Position numbers and translations under genes: made by a program. A stretch of DNA of 64,000 nucleotides from Megalonaias nervosa (taxonomy: Eukaryota > Mollusca > Bivalvia > Unionida > Unionidae), in contig JAECUM010001777.1 in assembly GCA_016617855.1 (NCBI GenBank), positions 104,961 through 168,960 on the forward strand. Reading direction: 5' to 3'. Each line of letters starts with the position of its first letter. The stretch's first letter is position 1. Shown here piece by piece: positions 1,453-61,600 of this stretch. Under the pieces are notes generated by a model, which was not told where the DNA came from, made no database searches, and worked only from the letters and a program-made list of their open reading frames with translations.

Positions 1453-4400
1453 ATGTTAAATAAACTAGTAATTTCTTTGATAGTGCATCCTGATAAAAAT
1501 TTGCAAGGGATGATATGACCATAACACACTGTTACAAAAGGTTTATGTTGATTATATGATAACACACTGTTGCAAAAGATTTATGCTGATTATACAATAA
1601 CACACTGTTGCAAAAGATTTATGCTGATTATCTTCCAAATTACTCAGACACAATACAACCACCACCAACAATAACAAACTATTAAAATGTTACATCTTAT
1701 TCTTATGTCTGTTATCTTTTACAAAATATTCATGTAAATACATTGAAAATATTCCTCACATTAGAAAATTTTGCAACAACAATCATGCCAACCCTTGGAA
1801 TGAACTTAATTTTAAAAACAAAACTTACTGGAGATAAAATACTATCACAGAACTTGTAGAATGTGTGTTATTACATACTTTTGTTTTATATACACATATT
1901 AATCCTGAAAAAAATTTGTGAAATTTACACTGCCTCACTCAATTTCAGTTAAATGACATTATGTTCAAGAAGGGAGAGTGAACCCTGCCATAAAATCTAG
2001 CTGAAACAGTAGTGAATGTTTTCAAATACATACCGCCATTTTTGTATTCCCTGTTCTGCGTATCTCATCCTGCAGCTGATTATAAATGTAGTCTATTTCC
2101 TGGTGATAGCTATTGGTTCGGCTCTGTGTATTTGACACCTCTATACTGAATATAATGTGATTATTCCTGAAAAATTCATGCAAAATATTGTTATATAAAC
2201 TTTTATCATTAAGAGGATGATGATTATGCTTATGATTATGATGGTTATTATTATTATTAATCCAAATATCTGGGCCCTCCAATTTTCTGGATTCTATATT
2301 ATCACAATCTGAAATAATTTTTAGTAGTACAAAAACTGTGCAAACACCAGGTATCTTTTTAAAGCCAACAAAATATATTCAAGATGGATGGAAGGAACAT
2401 ATCACCTGTCCTAAAATACCCCAGATCATTAAACAAATACTGGTCATATGTGAAAGTGCTCTGATTACCCACATTATTATTTATTATGTGGATTAACTTA
2501 AGTTGTTGTCCATAGCAAAAAAAGCAACCGACATGCTCCCCAATTCAAAATTACTCGGCATGATATATCCAAAAGACTTCATGTAGAGGGGCCTCAGGTG
2601 GCCATGTGGTCTAAGGTAATCGCCTTACAGATCACTAATAAAAGATTGATGTAGACACTTCACATTCTCAGTAAGGTGGGTTTGTGTGAAATAAAGTGTT
2701 TAAATATCTATTTCGGTTGCTATGTCTTCCCATTTTCAACCAGCTAAACTGAGTTGACATTTGTGATAAAGCAATATATCATTTAGGGCAGATCATTTTT
2801 GACGTTGTTCACACTGCTCAGCAATGGCAGTACATGTAAACAAAAACAGACCTAAGTGTTCATATCTACTATCAATATGAATTATTTTTTCCTTGGTCCT
2901 GAAGCACATTTATTAAGTTGTCTTTAGGGCTACCATATGTCATTTGCTTATAAATATTATAATGATGAAAATACAAGAATGGTCAATTTCAATCATACAT
3001 CATAGTGGAAATGTAGTTAACTACCATTATCCCAAAAGAAGAGAAAATTACCAAAATAACAATACAAAATTTTTAAAACAATATGAACTACTGATTTCTT
3101 TGAGGGGCAATCACACTAAACTGAATGTGGGAAAGGCAATTATACTGTATCCTTATACCCTCAGAGACAATTATTAGAAATGAAACTATTGTTTGTTACC
3201 CAATTTGAACATACCTTAAACCATGAATATTGACAAAGAACAGTCCACATTCATTTGAAACACAAAAGTATATTTGCTTTTTTCTTCATCATGAAGAGAT
3301 TTACTCACAAGTCCTCTGTTAAAACAAGCATGGCTCCATCCAACCTGTCTTTCTCTGATCTTTTCCTTGTGCTGGGAACTTGAGTAGAAACCACAAAACC
3401 ATTTGACTGCTGCTTCTACCATGAAAATAATATTTACATCAATGGTGTTAAATAATTGAAACAAAGAACATAGCATGATAAGAGCAGAGTATGGTCAGTT
3501 ATAGATGATACCACCAAAACATTATAAAAATATTTTTCTCATCTCAAAAGCTTGGATAAGCATGATTTTACTGTATTTGTAATGGTTTTGTACATCCAAA
3601 TGTTTCTGAACTGGTGCATTTGTTCCATACATTTAAGTACCGAGATTTTGTTTACAAAAAAATATTCTTCTGGATGGTGAAATTTCCATCATCTATATTA
3701 TATGATGTCCCACATAATTTTTTCTTTGTGAAATTATCATCCATTTAATCACCTGAATGTTTAGATTCTTGTCATATCCCCTACAATATCTAGATAACCA
3801 CTAACCAGTATTTGTCAATAACTTTGGCAATGCAGGGAATCAAATAGCAACAATTTCTGATCCCTAGCTGAAACATGTCACAATACATGTCAAAATTTAA
3901 ATACATGGGATTGGTTGCTGACGTGTTCAGAAACAAAGGTTTATTCTCCCTTTCATTCTAACATGTTGTTTGTCAGACACCAATTAAAAACAGCTTGATC
4001 AAGCAGATGTTTTGGATCTATGGTTGAGTTAGTCTGGTTCCCTGACCAATTTTGCTGAATCTAAATGAAATCTGGGTCTGAATCAAACATAGACAGGCCA
4101 GTATCTATATTTTACTGCAAACAATTATATTTCCATACTTTGTGCTTTTATTTAAAAAAGCCCTTATTTTAAGGGTCATTTCCATAAGACTTATGGCAAA
4201 ATTGTAAGGGTTGGCAGGTCTTTATCATATCAAAGTAGATTTATTAAGTTGAAAAAGCAAATTGTTTTTTGTTAAAATTTTTCCAAATCAATTTTCTTGA
4301 AATCTTCTTGACACACTTATCATTGTCCACCCCAAGAAGCCTGATTTTACTTGGTGAAAGTCCCAACAGACCTGCCAACCCCAACGAGAGTCCTCGAGGG

Positions 4401-8883: not shown

Positions 8884-8927
<44 letters not shown>

Positions 8928-11900
8928 GACATTTGAAAATGCTGCATAAAGCCTTTTCAATATGGAATCAAGAAACATCCTGCCAGTTCATTAACACATT
9001 TTCCAGTTTGAATACAAGAAGGCATATCACATTTATGATGATTACACTGAAACCAAATTAAAAGATAAATTAAAACATGAATTTCCCTTGACAAAACTTA
9101 CTTAACAGGAATTCATTACTTAAAGTGCTAACTGATTGAAATTTCATCTTAAATTGTTATTAACAGTGTACTGCAAAATATATTTACAAAGAAAATTTAA
9201 TAAAATGTGTTTTCATAATAAAAGTTGAAAATTTCATGATGTTGTCAGATTTATGCACAGTCATTTCCAACTATAAAACAAGTGATGCATCAAGGTTTCA
9301 TTTACCAATTTTGATCATGATTTTATTTATATTCAACAAATGGGCCTATTTTTGGACATTTTTTATGAGAAAAAATTTGATTTACACCTGCCCTGCATTA
9401 TAAATGGGACCTCTAAGTTAAGTAGGCATGCTAAAGCGAGAAGTAGTGTATTTATGCATCTATTAAGGCAATTATCATATAGAGGCCTTAATTGTTAAAC
9501 AATTATTTACAACTACACTTGACATACAAAATTACCTTGATGAGTAATGCTGCAGCATTGTCTTCACCAGTTTAAAAACAAGGTCAAAGTAAGGTATGGT
9601 TTTTATGTTCTGAACTGGTCCTCTGCAAAGGTAAAAAGGGCTGATATTGGTAAAAGTTGAAACTTTCTTCAGTTTACTTCCATAGTACAACAACTTCTAA
9701 CAACTCAGTATGCACCAAGCTCTCAACAGTTCTGATGCTGTTGTGAAAGTGATGTCTTAAAAATGAAGGAAACAAGAGATTAACCTGGAGGAGACCACAA
9801 ACTTAGAGGAGAAACCACCCACCTTTGCACATGTTGGAACCTGGGATCAAATCCTGGAGTACAGAGTTGCAAAGAGAATGTGCTATCCAGGTCCCCACCA
9901 ATATTAATATCTAGTTACACTCCTGGCTCTAGATACAATTTAAAATGTGAATTCAGGTACATATTAATGTTTCAAATTTAAACAAGCCGATTCCAGGAAC
10001 TGATGTACCCTGCATTTCACTGAAAGTCTGAAAGTGGAATTTTATAGAGGAAACTGCTGTAAGACAATGGTGATACAGTAAATGATTTAAGGTACATTTG
10101 TAAAGGAAGGCATAATTGATGAGTTAGAATGACAACAATCAAATTCATCATCATCATCAATCTCAAACTTTTGATAAAATTTTGATTGAAATCCACTAAT
10201 AAGAGAAATACTGTCCAGAAACAAAAGTGGGTGGGTAAATCCCCTTAACAATGAACATTAACAATTAAATTCAGTCAAGATCTCAACAAAATTTAGCAGA
10301 CTGAAAAATACCATGAAGACTAATTCAAATTAAATGAGACACGAGTTGGGACAGGGCAACTTTTCTAAGATTTTTGACATAATGGGAGATTAGAAACAGG
10401 GTAAGAGTTTTAATCATTATGGTCAAGTGCTGGATGTCTCAAATAAGGCTTTACAACTGCTGTTTTGAAAAATGATGAGAATACTCCAGATGAGAAAGCA
10501 GTGTTAATAACATCAGTTAGTGGAGGCAATACAGAATGTAAGCATTCCATAAGCAGTGATGTAGGAATCAGATTAGGTTCACATGACTTTGGGGAATTCT
10601 TCATCAGGACTGTACATGAGAAAAATCAAAAGAAAAAGGCTCCAATGCTGTTAAATATATCACAAGTATATGGTGAGGTTCAGTCTGTTGAAACTGTGTT
10701 GTCAACTTTACCTCTAACTGTTTGCACTTTATCAAAGACAATTTGCAAACAGGTCCAGAAGGTCAACTGGAAGTGGTGTAAATTTGCTCCTTGACATTAA
10801 CTTATTAGTAATAATGAAGAGTTCTTTGCAGCTGGAATATTCAGTGCTCTTAGTACTAGGGTAGGTTGTTTTTGCTGCATCAGCTATGTTATATCCTTAG
10901 CAGCTTCATATATTTGGTTTTGAACAGTATGACTATATGAAAGTCAAAGCTTTGCATCCTTACAGAGATCAAAGCTGGTACTGAACTCTGGTGTACCATG
11001 GAGAACACTTCAGAACTGATACTCTACACTGGGTTGCTGGTACATGTTTGTTATCAGTGAATGCATGCACATATCCAGTTGTTCAGCTGTAGGATGTAAC
11101 AAAGTTGTAAGGTTTGCTTGGATGTCATACATTAAATGCATTCTATTTTCCCTTTGAGGAGCAAAGGTGGAGGATTGGAGACAGACACATGGAGATGGTA
11201 TATGATGCAGAGGTGATCTGATGCAAGTTGTCCAATGAACACTGTAGAATATCATCTTCAGGTCTATGAAAAATCCAGTCTAAAATGTGGACATATTTTC
11301 TGATGGTTGTCAAACGACTGCTTGAATTTGAAAGGATGAATGGAATCCATGATGTTTGATGTGTATGGGTTACCAGGACAGTCAATATGAAAACTGAAAT
11401 CTCTAAGAATAATCAGGCTGCCACTGACATAACTTCCAAATTCTTGAAGATTTGGAAACTGCTCCAGAGATTCAGTAAGCTTTTTTTTTACTATAAGAAA
11501 AGTGGTACAGGCAGAAGAATGGACTGACCTCTGTTGCACTGTGAGGGTGGTCTGAACCATTTAAATGATCCATTGATGAAACTGAAGGTTGCAGAGTAGT
11601 TAAGATTATAGGGTATTATGTTCTTTGTGAGGACATAAATTCCACCTTTAGGGCAGTGACAGAGGAATTGACCAAAAAACAGTGGGTGTTAGATCTGCAC
11701 ATTTAGGTTCCTTACCTGATGGTGTTAGTCATATTTCTGTCAGGAAGAAGATGTAAATATCATGGTCAATGACAAAGTTACATTTTCGTGTGTACTTTGC
11801 TGGTGGGCAAATTGACTGGGTGTTGAATAATGCAACAGTACATGGTTGCTTGGTCTTAAAGGCTGATGAATAAAGATGAATTTGAACTAAGTTGGTGAAG

Positions 11901-52600: not shown

Positions 52601-55600
52601 ACCCCACTCTGCTTAGATTCTGCTTTTGTAAATGAAAGGTGAAATTTTTTTTATATAAAACTTCTATCCAACCAAATGTACACACAAAATAATGCATGGA
52701 CTATGTCTACACTAATATAATAATTTCAGTAAGAAGCCACCATTCACTTGCATGTTTTCATAAGATTAAATTGTAAAAAGGAAGCCATGCTAAGCTCAGT
52801 ACAGAACAAAAACATAAGATAATCAAGTCAACCAGGTTTAACAAAGTTAGAGACTACAAAGTTTGCAAACAACACAGGCAGGTTTGATTGTAATAATAAT
52901 GCAAGAAAACAAGGAATGATGCACGAAACTAATACTGAAGAAGAAACTGTGTTTGATAGCTGAACACTTGATATGAAGACAAAAAGTGGTGTGTGACCTG
53001 CTTACCATGTATAAAATAGCACAATTAATGTTAAAGGTAATGTGAATTAAATGATCATTTAATAAACAATGGATAAAGATGAGTCCATAGACCACAATAT
53101 ATGCAAGGATTGGGAATTTAAACAGAATACCCATCTTTAGCTACAAAAAAAGCACAACCAAATTTGAATCACTAATTAAATAAATGTCAAGCTGTACACC
53201 ATTTGTATGGAACAAATGCTAATAACTCTCAAGAGAGCTTAAATTAGCTGAGAGAAAACTCTCTGGGGTTTAGTCCAAAAAATTACAAAGAATATGCACA
53301 CAAGAGAAACAGTAAATTTGCCTGTTGACCCATGAAGCAATGGCAAATCTTCTTTGACTTAAACAATGTAGACATTCCTACACGTTGACTGAGAAAAGAA
53401 TAAATTGCATTACACACAGGCAAGAATTTGTAGGGTGTCCCAGAGGCAATCCAGCATTCTGGGACATTCTGGTTCATGCTAATGGAAGGATGAATTTTCA
53501 ACAGATGGTCAGGGTATTTTCCAACCAGAAAAGTACCAGCTATACAATAGCAACAGATATGGTATTTCTGATATTAACGTAAGTTTACTCAATAAATGTT
53601 TAGTTCAGACTCATGAAAAGGTTAATGATGATCAAAATGGATACAAGAATTGTGATTACATATACAATCTCTGTATTATGATAACAACGGTGATGTTTAA
53701 TCTGTCTGCAATAATTACATTTTGTTTCGCTAAACTAAAATGACAGGATGGTCCAAATTCATTCTGAAAGCCATGGAATGCTCCAAACCCTATCAAAATC
53801 TCTAACAAATGTTTGACAAGTAATTTTTAATCCCCCCCAGTAACGGTAAACATGCATACGACTTGTTTGAGTGTAACAGATTCCTTGTAACTTTTACAAG
53901 AACATTTCTGCAAGACATTACAGAAGAATTCTGTACACAGTAGTATTTTAAGCAAAGCCAGCTGTCAGGTGGGAAGCAATCTCAATGTATCCAAGATGAA
54001 ACTGGAATTGTTGGCTACCTGGAAGTCTTGAACAGCCTCTTGTGGATTACCACTGTAATACATGAGACTGCCTCGGAGATGTAAAGTAGGGGCATGGTAG
54101 GGGTTCATTCCCAATGACTGGTTAAAACGGCTTCTAGCTGCCCTTGAGTTGCCAATTTCTCTGAAAAATCAAATCATACAAATCCTCCATCAAGATGACA
54201 GATACTAATCACAATAAGGGTTCCACCAAAGACTAATCTTGCTTGTGAATTACTGTGTGATACACCTTACATGCAAAAGCTTTAACATGAATATAGACCT
54301 TATTTCCACCACTTGAAATTAATGCCTCATTAAATGTAATACCATTATCACATGTATGCTTTTCAAGTACCAAAATATGAAACAGACACCTCATTTTTGG
54401 CTTTCAAGTACTAAAGTTCCAGAAATATGATACTAATATGTCATACATGCTTTTCAAGTTCGAGAAATGTGATACTAATATCTCATACATGGTCTTCAAG
54501 TACCAACATGTGATACTGGTATCTCAAACATGCTTTTCAAGTTCCAGAAATGTGATGCTAATATCTCATAAATGCTTTTCAAGTTCCAGAAATGTGATAC
54601 TAATATCTTATAAATTCTTTTCAAGTTACAGAAATGTGATACCAATATTTCATCTATATCTAAGAATGACAAAGTGATTTTCTTTTGATACTGAGAATTT
54701 TAAAGTTTTCAAAGACAATGGCCATTAAAAATATACTGAATGAAAAGTGCAAGACACTGGAACAAAAAAGATTTAGTTTTAATATGTAGCTCTATCCAAA
54801 AATCATCTGGTTTCATAGCTATCTCAACAAGAACCAGAGTTTTTGTTTCAAATTCCAAAATTTTAACAACAATTCTATTAAGGGCTGTTTCATTTAAACA
54901 TACATGGTATCCAGAGAAGGCAGTTTTTGAAAAATATATGCCAGGGTAATTTGATTTCACAGAGTTCATACTGAAATGATAAAAAAATTCTAATCTGCAT
55001 CAATGGGTGAGAACCCCTCTTTAAAAGTGCCTTCCCTGGGTCCCATGTATGTTTTAATGGAACAGCCTTAAGCAACAAGATATTCTAGATACCTGAATTG
55101 ATTATCTTACATTTTAAAAGTAACCTCTTCAAAATGTGGAAAAATCTTTTGCATATAATATCATATTAATTCACTATTTTATCATTTATCTTAGCTTTTC
55201 ATTTCCTTGTTGTCCCCATATCTCTGGAAATTCTTTGTCTACCGCTGTGAAAAATAAATCAACAGTTTGGCCATGATATGAGGTTCAACAAAGTGGAATA
55301 AAAGTGCAAATTAATAACATGTTTTACCACTATCTTACCACACTTAAGTTTGTCAGTGAATGGCTTGAAGGACATAATAATGTTTCTTTGTGAGCAGTAA
55401 ATCACTAACAGGAGCAGACACAAAGAAAATTGCTGTAATTTTTATAACCATTCTGACTTTTACCTCCAAATGATGACAAATGCCAGCATAGAACATCTGG
55501 GCTACTGTATGTTAAAGTTTCATACAACTGTAAACAGCATAGTTCTGCCAGTGCACACTGCACCTGCAGTTCATAGTCTACAAAGTTTGCATGTAATCAC

Positions 55601-58600
55601 ATGCAAAATGAACAGCATAGGATCTGTTATGTCTGTACATGACTCGGAAATACTGATTTGCGTTGTTTTGCTGAATAATTTTCATTTCTTGACACCTTAA
55701 TCTGTGGATAAATCCAATGGGTCCTATTCTGTCAAAGAAAAATTATTTCATCTGGTATGAAGGAACCATAAAGTCTGCATAAAATGGTAAAACGTGAATG
55801 AATGTGATTTTGTGGTATGCCATGACAGACCTGGATCTATGCTGTTAGATAATACCCAAATGCTCTACTTAGACTAGTGTGGCTTACCTAAATGCTTGAC
55901 TTAGACTATAGTACAAGTCACATGAGTCATGTAGGCATCAACACAAACTATTTCAGTAATAGGTGTCACTTTTTGGAATTTGATTCTACATACCTTTAAG
56001 TGACAAGTATTCACTTCATTTGGATTCGTATACATCCATATTCCTTTGGAAGGTCATTATTTAGACGCTCTGAGAAGTGCTTACAGCAAAATCAATGTTA
56101 AAGTATGCATACATTTTTGGATGAAAAGAACCTAAAGGTGCGATTCAGTACAATCAGGACTGAATGTTGCACACTGTGATGTCATAATGAAAGCTACACA
56201 TATTGATAAACAAATTCATACTACCCTCGAATGCGACGATTCCACTCCTCGTGCTCATATTTTGACCCAAGTTTACTACATGGCCACCACTGTAAAGTCC
56301 ATAGCAATAGATAATTTTTGTCTGAAAGTTTCTTGGTGGCAGTTAATGTGCAGAGCATCCAACAATCAGGAATGAATAGACTTTGGTCAAAGACAATTAG
56401 TGTTAAATTTAAAAAGAACAATTTATATTTAATTTAAAATGAGTAAATGTGCATTCATGACCCATGTGACTTGTACTATAGTGCTGGCTTACCTAAATGC
56501 TTGACTTAGACTAATGCTGGCTTACCTAAATGCTTGACTTAGATTAATGCTGGCTTATCTAAATGTTTGACTTAGACTAGTGCTGGCTTACCTAAATGCT
56601 TGACTTAGGTTAATGCTGGCTTATCTAAATGCTTGACTTAAGACTAATGCTGGCTTACCTAAATGCTTGACTTAGACTAATGCTGGCTTACCTAAATGCT
56701 TGGCTTAGATTAATGCTGGCTTACCTAAATGCTTGACTTAGATTAATGCTGCCTTACCTAAATGCTTGACTTAGACTAATGCAGGCTTACCTAAATGCTT
56801 GACTTAGATTAATGCTGCCTTATCTAAATGCTTGACTTAGACTAGTGCTGGCTTACCTAAATGCTTGACTTAGATTAATGCTGGCTTATCTAAATGTTTG
56901 ACTTAGACTAGTGCTGGCTTACCTAAATGCTTGACTTAGGTTAATGCTGGCTTATCTAAATGCTTGACTTAGACTAATGCTGGCTTACCTAAATGCTTGA
57001 CTTAGACTAATGCTGGCTTACCTAAATGCTTGACTTAGATTAATGCTGGCTTACCTAAATGCTTGACTTAGATTAATGCTGCCTTACCTAAATGCTTGAC
57101 TTAGACTAGTGCTGGCTTACCTAAATGCTTGACTTAGGTTAATGCTGGCTTATCTAAATGCTTGACTTAAGACTAATGCTGGCTTACCTAAATGCTTGAC
57201 TCAGATTAATGCTGGCTTACTTAAATGATTGACTTAGACTAATGCAGGCTTACCTAAATGCTTGACTTAGATTAATGCTGCCTTACCTAAATGCTTGACT
57301 TAGACTAGTGCTGGCTTACCTAAATGCTTGACTTAGGTTAATGCTGGCTTATCTAAATGCTTGACTTAGACTAATGCTGGCTTACCTAAATGCTTGACTC
57401 AGATTAATGCTGGCTTACTTAAATGATTGACTTAGACTAATGCAGGCTTACCTAAATGCTTGACTTAGATTAATGCTGCCTTATCTAAATGCTTGACTTT
57501 GACTAGTGCTGGCTTACCTAAATGCTTGACTTAGATTAATGCTGGCTTATCTAAATGCTTTACTTAGACTAGTGCTGGTTTACCTAAATGCTTGACTTAG
57601 ATTAATGCTGCCTTATCTAAATGCTTGACTTAGACTAGTGCTGGCTTACCTAAATGCTTGACTTAGATTAATGCTCGCTTATCTAAATGCTTGACTTAGA
57701 CTAGTGCTGGCTTACCATAATGCTTGACTTAGATTAATGCTGGCTTATCTAAATGCTTGACTTAGACTAGTGCTGGCTTACCTAAATGCTTGACTTAGAT
57801 TAATTCTGGCTTATCTAAATGCTTGACTTAGACTAGTGCTGGCTTACCTAAATGCTTGACTTAGATTAATGCTGGCTTACCTAAATGATTGACTTAGACT
57901 AAAGCAGGCTTACCTAAATGCTTGACTTAGATTAATGCTGGCTTACCTAAATGCTTGACTTAGACTAGTGCTGGCTTCAAGATTCTCTGGATCTTTCTTT
58001 AATACTTCTTTAAAAACTTCTATAGCATTCTGAAAAGAGAACATGGATTGTGCAAGATAAATATCTATCTGCACTTTAATCTTCCAAATATAAAATATCA
58101 ATATCTATAGATGACAGTGATAGTTTAAAATTATATTAAAAATAATGTCTGTTTTTTTTAATTATTTTTTTTATATCAGTGAATATACAGGTTTTACATG
58201 GCTTTCCACAAGCTATTAAAGCATAGTTGGAACCATCATACCTTACATGCCAGACAGGTAACCTCCACCATGCCTTTATTTTGCCACCTTGCCTTAATTT
58301 CTCAATACCAACCCTTCAAGATGTACAATTTCAACTAAAAGAATCTAACAATTTAAAAATTCAATGAGTTTATTGACACACCTTTAGTTATTTACATACT
58401 AATTTCTTGGCTTCTTGTTTGTAAAATGACTTCCAGAACCAACTACAGTGTAACCCTGCTAAAGCTCACTTCGTTACAGAACGAATTCGGATATAACATG
58501 ACTGCAACATGGCTCCCAAAATATTTTGTATATTTGTTCATTAGTGAAAAAATGACTTTTCTTTTTTCAAAGTACAAAAACTAATGTGTAAAAAGTTAAT

Positions 58601-61600
58601 TATCATTTTGGGGAAGAGACAGTATTAGAATTCAGATATAACATGATCGTAGAGAGGCTCATGACATTCAACAATAATTTCAACAATTTCTTGAAGAAGT
58701 GCAAAGTTTTGTGCCAAAATAAACAAGAGTGTTATTTAATAATTTGGCAAGATGTGATCCATTCTTGAAGAAAAAATTGTTTCATGGTTGAATGTTTCTT
58801 GATATGATAAAAATGTTCTTTTTCTAACTTGTTAATATTTCAAATATGTCAGCAGTTGATTGCAGACTTTTCATCTTAGCTTAGTTTTGAAAGAAGTTAG
58901 CTCATTAAAAAACTGATTAATCTTATTACTTTTTAACTATGAATGACACAATCCAGTAAGTCTTTTCTGTTTTTCTACAATATTATTTGTGCAATTTTTG
59001 CTCAAAGAAAAGAGAATAATATAATCAATTTCAGTAACTGCTAATCATCAATGTTAATCTCACTACTAGAAGTTGTTACAATTATGGGGCCATAATATAT
59101 AAAACAAAATCCACCCCAAAACTCAAGCTGCCAACACATGCACATGGCTCTGTGGTTTTATCAATCATCATGCAGTCAACTGACCAGTGAGTACTATTCT
59201 GCATTTTCTATAAACATGACCCCATTGTTCCTTGACAATTATTCTTGCTGTAGTTGGTCAAACAATTAGGGGTCAAAGTGTTAATTAATGGCTATTTACA
59301 ATTGATAATGTGATTCAGAAATGAGAAACTTGAAGCCCCATGCAGGATTAAGGCCAGAGTTAAACAAATTCAATTAGCTTCAAAATTTAGTGTTCAAAAG
59401 TCAAACAAATAATGTGGTGGTCTAAAAATGCTCCTTCACCAAATATATAAATCAATTAATTTACCCATCATTTTATGGGAAAAGAACATCATCCATCATA
59501 AACACCAGTTGCAACAATTTATGGACCAAATTGTCAGCAGTTTTGGTCATTGCCACACACATGTAAAGCAACTCCCACATAATATCATCTTAATCCACTT
59601 TTATTTTCAGGCATCAAATCATTCAAACGTAAAAAGGAAACTTTCATTTCAGTGTCAACACTTGTTGGAACAAAACCATTTAAGTTATAGGGGTTGAGAG
59701 ATTGGGCTAATACAATTAAATGTTCTACTCCCTGCTGCTCTGTTGTGAAGCAAAGTCATAGTTATAAAACAAACGAGGCAATGAATACTGGGTTTTTATT
59801 ATATAATTTTTTCTCTATCCTTAAAGAATGACTTCACATTTTTTAAGGAATTCATTCTGAGCCCACACAATTGAATGGTTTATTCCCAAACTGGGTCCAT
59901 GCAGTTTACATGTATACACACCCAATGAAGTCTTGTTGCAAGAGCATTGCTAGGTCAATACCTCAGACCTTATTTTTTTGCTGAAATACATGTACTATTT
60001 ATGCCTACATATATATTTCTTTTTCAAAACTCTGTGTGTCTGAATAATGCTTTTTATAGTCAGTCAGAAATCAGACCCTTTGAACACATCCAGCAAATAT
60101 GAATGTTGTGAAAAAACCCACACCTGTTTAATAAATTTCCGTGAATGTAATAGCAAGAAATTAAATGGAACTGAATGGATTTAGCAAACGTGTTTTATTA
60201 CAGAAACTGTGCTTCTCTGTGCACATTTTTCATGTAATTTCTATTATGGATAAAAACTCATCATACTCACTTACATGTCAATTTCAACTGCAAACCTAAG
60301 TATATACTGTTTGTTAGGGGCAATCTACAGAACAAACAATACAAAACCTGATCTGCCAACAACATTATGTGATGGCAGATTAGGGTCTATGTTGTTTGCA
60401 GTTGGCCATGACTTTTAAGTATATACAGACATCTTTTGAAAGATTATTTTTTAAACATGGAAGATTAATATAAGCCAACAGATACATGTATCAATGCAGA
60501 TGTAACAAAAACCTAACCTGGAAGTAAAAATAAAGCAGAACAGAAATCAGTTAAATGCAAAAGAATTTTATGTTTTTTTCAAATTGTACAGCATGGCCTT
60601 TTTGATGCAAGTATCTTGATTAGTGTCATGATCAACCATCCAAAGTGTCTGAATGGCTGCTTTGGTTAAATATGCTAGTTTTAATTTTGAAAAAAAATAC
60701 ATTGTTCAGTTTGTCATTTCTTTTGAAGATAACAGGAATGGAGAAAACTAATCCTATCATATCTCATAAACTGATGAGGTTATATCTTATGAACTAATGA
60801 TAATATGCGCAAATATGAATATAGCTATGAATCATGAACAATTTTCAATATGAATCAAACAAGAAAATTATGTAAAAAAAATTAAATGATGCTTGCACAT
60901 GAACAAAAAAGCTCTCATCTTAACTCACCCGAACTTTTCCTCTATAATACTGGGCTAAACCAAGGTAAAATAGGCTAGGTAAATGATTTGGTCCTTCAGC
61001 ACTATCTAAAATTTCCTTGAAATCTTTCTCAGCATCTGCAAAATTCTGTAAATACAGAAAGAGATAATTAAAAGGTTTAGAATCAAGAAATTCAGCTTTT
61101 TAAACTTACCAAATTCAGACTTGAAAATTTCAGCTCTGTTGATGCTGTGCAAATTACCTCATCACAGTACATTTCCATTATATCAGGTTGATCATATCTG
61201 TCATAAACTTGACTTATGAAATGAATGTTTTACTGTTATGTAATCTTACATGGCCAACCTAAAGGGGTTTCCATGGGGATTCTGGGAAAAATTACTTTTG
61301 AAAATTAGTTTTACAAACTGACCATGACATAGTCATAAATATGAAAAGGTATAACTTCAATTTTACATATTACTGGCATATACATTGTTTGCACAGATCT
61401 TGTATTTTTGCAAACACTTTTGCCAAAATGGTTATTTTTCAACCATTTCAGATATTAAAGCTTTTGTCATTGTTCCTTTCCCCTAAAGAATGTCTTGCCA
61501 TTGACCCAACAATCAGGACACTAACAATAATTACTTTTCTCTCTGTTCAGATAACTGGTGAATAATGAAAATGATAAATTATCCCAAATACTCTCTAGAA

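Follow-up and report, generated by a model that had tools for sequence, protein, structure and literature searches.

Minisatellite-like tandem duplications of exon–intron boundaries, many of them carrying AG/GT, are known from amphioxus as mirages (PMC3087553). They have been described there in the genes Adh3, BflGb6, BflGb9, TnC and PGBD5 (PMC3087553, PMC3902484; further cited to Canestro 2002). According to the passages of these papers that deal with them, mirages are unstable in length and reportedly leave regular splicing undisturbed (PMC3087553, PMC3902484), and one of them duplicates the 3′ (donor-side) border of its exon (PMC3087553). The human gene IFI6 (6-16, G1P3) carries a minisatellite whose repeats offer more than one splice donor (Turri 1995, via PMC4526556). 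Two downstream repeat donors are reported to be used, resulting in three mRNA species, and the IFI6 protein isoforms are described as differing by alternative repeat donors (PMC4526556). Internal tandem repeats at exon–intron boundaries within human segmental duplications have been treated as a possible origin of introns (PMC2812944). Here we describe a border-spanning array in an intron of TTC13 of the unionid mussel Megalonaias nervosa. The sequence-only reading of this locus had held that no minisatellite of such a kind was known; the amphioxus mirages and human IFI6, as far as the cited passages describe them, precede it. A search of the open-licence literature returned no border-spanning minisatellite from a mollusc, bivalves included. 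The TTC13 array is an unusually long example of these already known minisatellites and not a new kind.

The window analysed is a stretch of 64,000 nucleotides from contig JAECUM010001777.1, and TTC13 lies on its minus strand (Table 1). A first exon map was built from a human TTC13 sequence. Eight predicted exons (b to i, 852 nt) join through AG/GT borders into a single open frame of 284 codons, and six later exons were placed beyond exon i; a scan for an exon between i and j gave no candidates. The contig stops at the end of the window, and the 5′ exons of TTC13 therefore lie outside the sequence. As protein query we used 495 aa from exons b–i and the six later exons, minus one exon between i and j. 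Among the 120 of 1054 matches listed, the closest was a protein of Sinanodonta woodiana, a unionid freshwater mussel (92% identity over the whole query), and named TTC13 matches came from Mactra antiquata (64%), Mya (64%), Dreissena (60%) and other molluscs. The fragment encoded by exons b–e matched TPR families. The open frame through the AG/GT borders and the 64% identity to the named TTC13 of Mactra antiquata bear out the earlier assignment of the exon to TTC13, and the acceptor that had been proposed at 54160 is present. Skipping of exon c shifts the reading frame. Elsewhere in the window, an open frame on the minus strand (10413-10625) resembles part of a LINE reverse transcriptase, and runs of the dinucleotide AT (1387-1450 and 8891-8927) lie 45 and 76 bp from the predicted TTC13 exons m and n.

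Table 1. Features of the TTC13 locus (positions refer to the window)
Feature	Position	Strand	Remarks
TTC13 exon b	60929..61045	-	immediately precedes exon c
TTC13 exon c	57947..58029	-	83 nt; starts in phase 0, ends in phase 2 (..GCA TTT AG); AG acceptor, GT donor
Authentic donor of exon c	57941..57949	-	TAG/GTAAGC; U1 duplex -9.6 kcal/mol
Main array, intronic part	56479..57946	-	44 complete 33-bp units and a 14-nt partial unit
Terminal-inverted-repeat element	55909..56478		570 bp, non-coding; TA duplicated on both sides; inserted in the array
Distal, partly decayed array units past the element	55856..55908	-	one further TAG/GTAAGC at 55887
TTC13 exon d	54019..54160	-	acceptor for exon c at 54160
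TTC13 exon i	23099-22928	-	last of the joined predicted exons b–i

The intron between exons c and d measures 3786 bp, and the main array fills 39% of it. Using TRF, we obtained a period of 33 with 45.3 copies and 89% matches at 56482-57977; cyclic alignment placed the main array, the exon copy included, at 56479-57977. The 33-bp unit joins the terminal 29 nt of exon c to GTAA, and the exon copy occupies 57975-57947. Both methods agree with the unit composition and the approximately 45 repeats given earlier. The exon-end array in the TTC13 intron is real. Its unit spans the exon–intron border and its terminal copy is the genuine exon end. The same intron contains a second, unrelated minisatellite (54414-54653; 42 bp, 5.7 copies) at 254 bp from exon d, and an inverted repeat of 45 nt (54883-54927 / 55023-55067) whose arms are 87% complementary and 95 nt apart.

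Each unit of the main array begins with a donor-like GTAAG or ATAAG, and one extra base is found in two of the 44 complete units. GT is kept at 32 of the 45 junctions, whereas AT stands in its place at the other 13. The GT junctions read TAG/GTAAGC (25), TAG/GTAAGG (3), TAA/GTAAGC (2), ATG/GTAAGC (1) and TAG/GTAAAC (1), so that many but not all copies carry AG/GT, and TAG/GTAAG occurs at 28/45 junctions within 1.5 kb of the transcribed strand. A pattern describing a ladder of three donors matched nine times in the window as compared with none in 100 dinucleotide shuffles. The ladder of some 30 donors seen in the sequence-only reading is thus correct as to the number of GT junctions, but the array also includes 13 junctions that have lost GT. 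Seven of the 44 complete units in the intron match all 29 nt of the exon tail, the mean identity being 93%, and identity to the exon shows no gradient along the array (correlation 0.08). The array comprises 20 distinct unit types. Identity between units was 0.93-0.95 at even lags and 0.89-0.90 at odd lags; this higher similarity at even lags indicates that a 66-bp dimer was the unit of amplification.

As far as the cited passages describe the amphioxus mirages, the mussel array shares with them a border-spanning unit beside the genuine border, AG/GT that is kept in many copies though not in every one, an intact regular gene, and homogenised inner units alongside edge units that have diverged further. 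It differs in occurring in a mollusc rather than a cephalochordate and in being split by a transposable element. Its approximately 45 copies compare with 6 and 3 in two BflGb6 haplotypes, and its unit of 33 bp with units of 10-72 bp in Adh3 and 150-160 bp in the globins. With the human segmental-duplication repeats (PMC2812944) it has in common a minisatellite expansion that touches splice borders; those repeats are presented as a route to new introns, whereas the mussel repeat keeps within an ordinary intron. The likeness to IFI6, in the part of that work cited here, lies in an exon-end minisatellite whose repeats supply several donors.

What the donors would do to the message can be read by translation. 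Splicing from the first donor keeps the frame open into exon d, but each of the 31 GT donors further downstream creates AGG-TAA, an immediate in-frame stop (31/31). The stop follows from AG/GTAA in phase 2, and no selection is needed to account for it. Only the first donor should therefore give intact TTC13, as judged from the reading frame. In IFI6, downstream donors are reported to be used and give three mRNA species, whereas every downstream donor in the mussel leads to a stop and none could encode a protein isoform.

The authentic donor is tied for second strongest in U1 pairing among the 14 predicted TTC13 donors. Pairing of equal strength (-9.4 to -9.9) was obtained at 28/45 junctions. 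The predicted accessibility of the authentic donor was 0.0025, a value inside the span covered by the 14 predicted donors (0.0006-0.072) and close to the array median of 0.002. Since U1 pairing and accessibility are alike across the donors, position alone marks the first one. RNA structure as a selector of the donor was rejected, because the array folds barely better than shuffled sequence (z -1.5 over the first 330 nt against 100 shuffles), and the accessibility of the authentic donor is unremarkable. The donor columns of the unit showed no special conservation (mean minor count 2.7 versus 2.3, p 0.44), in a test that is weak as the units are not independent of one another.

The exon tail encodes QA[FY][RK]E, which is present in 22 of 25 aligned relatives, and the c/d border is gap-free in all 25 (25 of the 120 listed). 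This conservation of the exon-tail residues indicates that the exon is ancestral and the array derived, in agreement with the proposal that exon c seeded the array. The exon-type ACTAGT occurs in the outermost units on both sides and ATTAAT lies internally, as expected with the exon as seed. The TRF match extends past the 29-nt tail by 2 exon bases, which suggests that 2 nt of homology may have assisted the first duplication. We trace the array to a slip or an unequal exchange in which the 29-nt tail of exon c was copied along with the intronic GTAA. Growth within the intron then proceeded largely by 66-bp dimers, which pair an exon-like unit with one in which GT has often given way to AT, and the 570-bp transposable element split the array later; this course can be read from the sequence.

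When the flanks of this element are rejoined, the array is restored in register, and its former extent reached about 55856. The element has terminal inverted repeats and a target duplication, and its longest frame is 79 codons. We scored 40 of 3884 candidate places in the assembly, the window's own among them, and found at least 39 other genomic copies with 87-89% identity over nearly all 570 bases. The limits of these copies define the same 570 bp. The occurrence of many copies with the same limits identifies the segment as a mobile element, and the inverted repeats, the target duplication, the copy number and the lack of a transposase frame are those of a MITE-like, non-autonomous TIR transposon. 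No copy was detected in a 200-kb sample of the genome at E 1e-3, which fits approximately one candidate per 560 kb. The array continues across the element, and the element has the same limits elsewhere; hence the array predates the insertion. If the copies share a common source, the divergence of the insertion itself would be approximately 6%, so the ladder would have been carried for a long time.

To see how common such arrays are, we turned to the whole assembly (2.19 Gb, 54,709 contigs). Allowing up to 3 mismatches, the 33-mer gave at least 38 matches, all 38 of them in the window's array and on one contig. In this check, which had been proposed earlier, the unit was not found outside the array, and a satellite spread through the genome that happens to overlap the exon was discarded on these counts, which are lower bounds. 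The 200-kb sample, assembled from 20 stretches of 10 kb of which half came from the window's contig, contained 35 tandem arrays of period ≥15 and at least three copies (34 distinct; one was counted twice across a cut), the largest with 32.5 copies. None of these 35 contained AGGTRAG, which indicates that donor-bearing arrays are a minority. Three copies of AGGTAAG at a spacing of 15-45 bases were found at 3010 places genome-wide (1986 and 1024 on the two strands), as compared with 4654 for the reversed pattern. By our own estimate, random spacing would yield about one match to the AGGTAAG ladder per genome, and both counts thus reflect tandem arrays. Ladders of donor-like sites occur widely in the genome, but not in excess over the reversed control. 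The first 100 places listed fall on 31 contigs. Among the places listed, a ladder on contig 179 is likewise built of 33-bp units, and some ladders have a pyrimidine-rich stretch ahead of AG/GT.

We consider it likely that the TTC13 array is an old, tolerated minisatellite of the mirage type, the first donor being chosen by exon definition. Exon definition favours the good donor that is nearest to the acceptor of the exon. Exon c, being short, would be taken as one unit that reaches from the acceptor at 58029 to the closest good donor. The remaining 31 donors with GT would be near-equal decoys whose use leads to a truncated, probably decayed transcript, and the array would be a tolerated load rather than a device. 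The frequency of tandem arrays in the 200-kb sample, together with the genome-wide AGGTAAG ladders, indicates that such arrays arise freely here. Against this explanation, donor-bearing arrays are a minority, as the lack of AGGTRAG in the sampled arrays shows, and the downstream donors match the authentic one in U1 pairing and predicted accessibility. When two strong 5′ sites are both bound by U1, the one nearer to the 3′ end of the intron can win; this effect would predict much unproductive splicing, contrary to a tolerated array. The reported use of downstream repeat donors in IFI6 points in the same direction (PMC4526556).

If the ladder competed with the first donor, a fraction of the transcripts would gain a stop and decay. 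Such a rheostat, in which array length would set TTC13 output, possibly by individual or by tissue, is in our view unlikely. The stop behind every downstream donor and the strength of these donors would suit it, but the stop arises from the phase without selection, the donor columns lack special conservation and 13 junctions have lost GT. A version in which the share of transcripts with the stop depends on how many near-equal donors there are, with changes in array length tuning TTC13 dosage between individuals or tissues, seems to us quite doubtful. The 28 TAG/GTAAG sites would also offer many places for U1, which might strengthen the definition of exon c or guard the intron from premature polyadenylation. 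We regard this as very unlikely: the authentic donor already is among the best of 14, its columns in the array carry no conservation signal, and donor-like ladders show no excess over the control motif. The recruitment of U1, slow splicing and protection from polyadenylation that had been envisaged earlier accordingly find no support in the donor columns or in the genome, where ladders are common. In most units AG stands directly ahead of GT, and TTTAG/GTAAG of each unit might in principle act as a ratchet point in recursive splicing. This we hold to be extremely improbable, and it was rejected on the poor quality of the units as acceptors. The pyrimidine fraction before AG averages 0.50 (maximum 0.60) as compared with 0.69 (minimum 0.55) in 14 predicted acceptors, and a further AG lies within the preceding 20 nt in 44/44 units versus 1/14 predicted acceptors. 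It is highly improbable that the array or its length is an assembly artefact. Tandem arrays are often mis-sized in assemblies as fragmented as this one, and one amphioxus mirage is reported to have been mis-assembled in the draft genome (PMC3087553). However, the 20 unit types, the two one-base variants, the decayed edge units and the internal transposon are unlike a simple collapse or duplication. The length of the array as assembled may be off.

The TTC13 intron represents a natural experiment in which the spliceosome has to choose one 5′ splice site among approximately 30 with the same local sequence. Every wrong donor gives the same stop, so errors would be countable in RNA from tissue in which decay is blocked. 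AGGTAAG ladders lie on at least 31 contigs, counting the first 100 places listed, and where such ladders adjoin exons the error rate could be measured at many loci. With this array, minisatellites that span exon borders are recorded in a mollusc too, one whose genome abounds in minisatellites.
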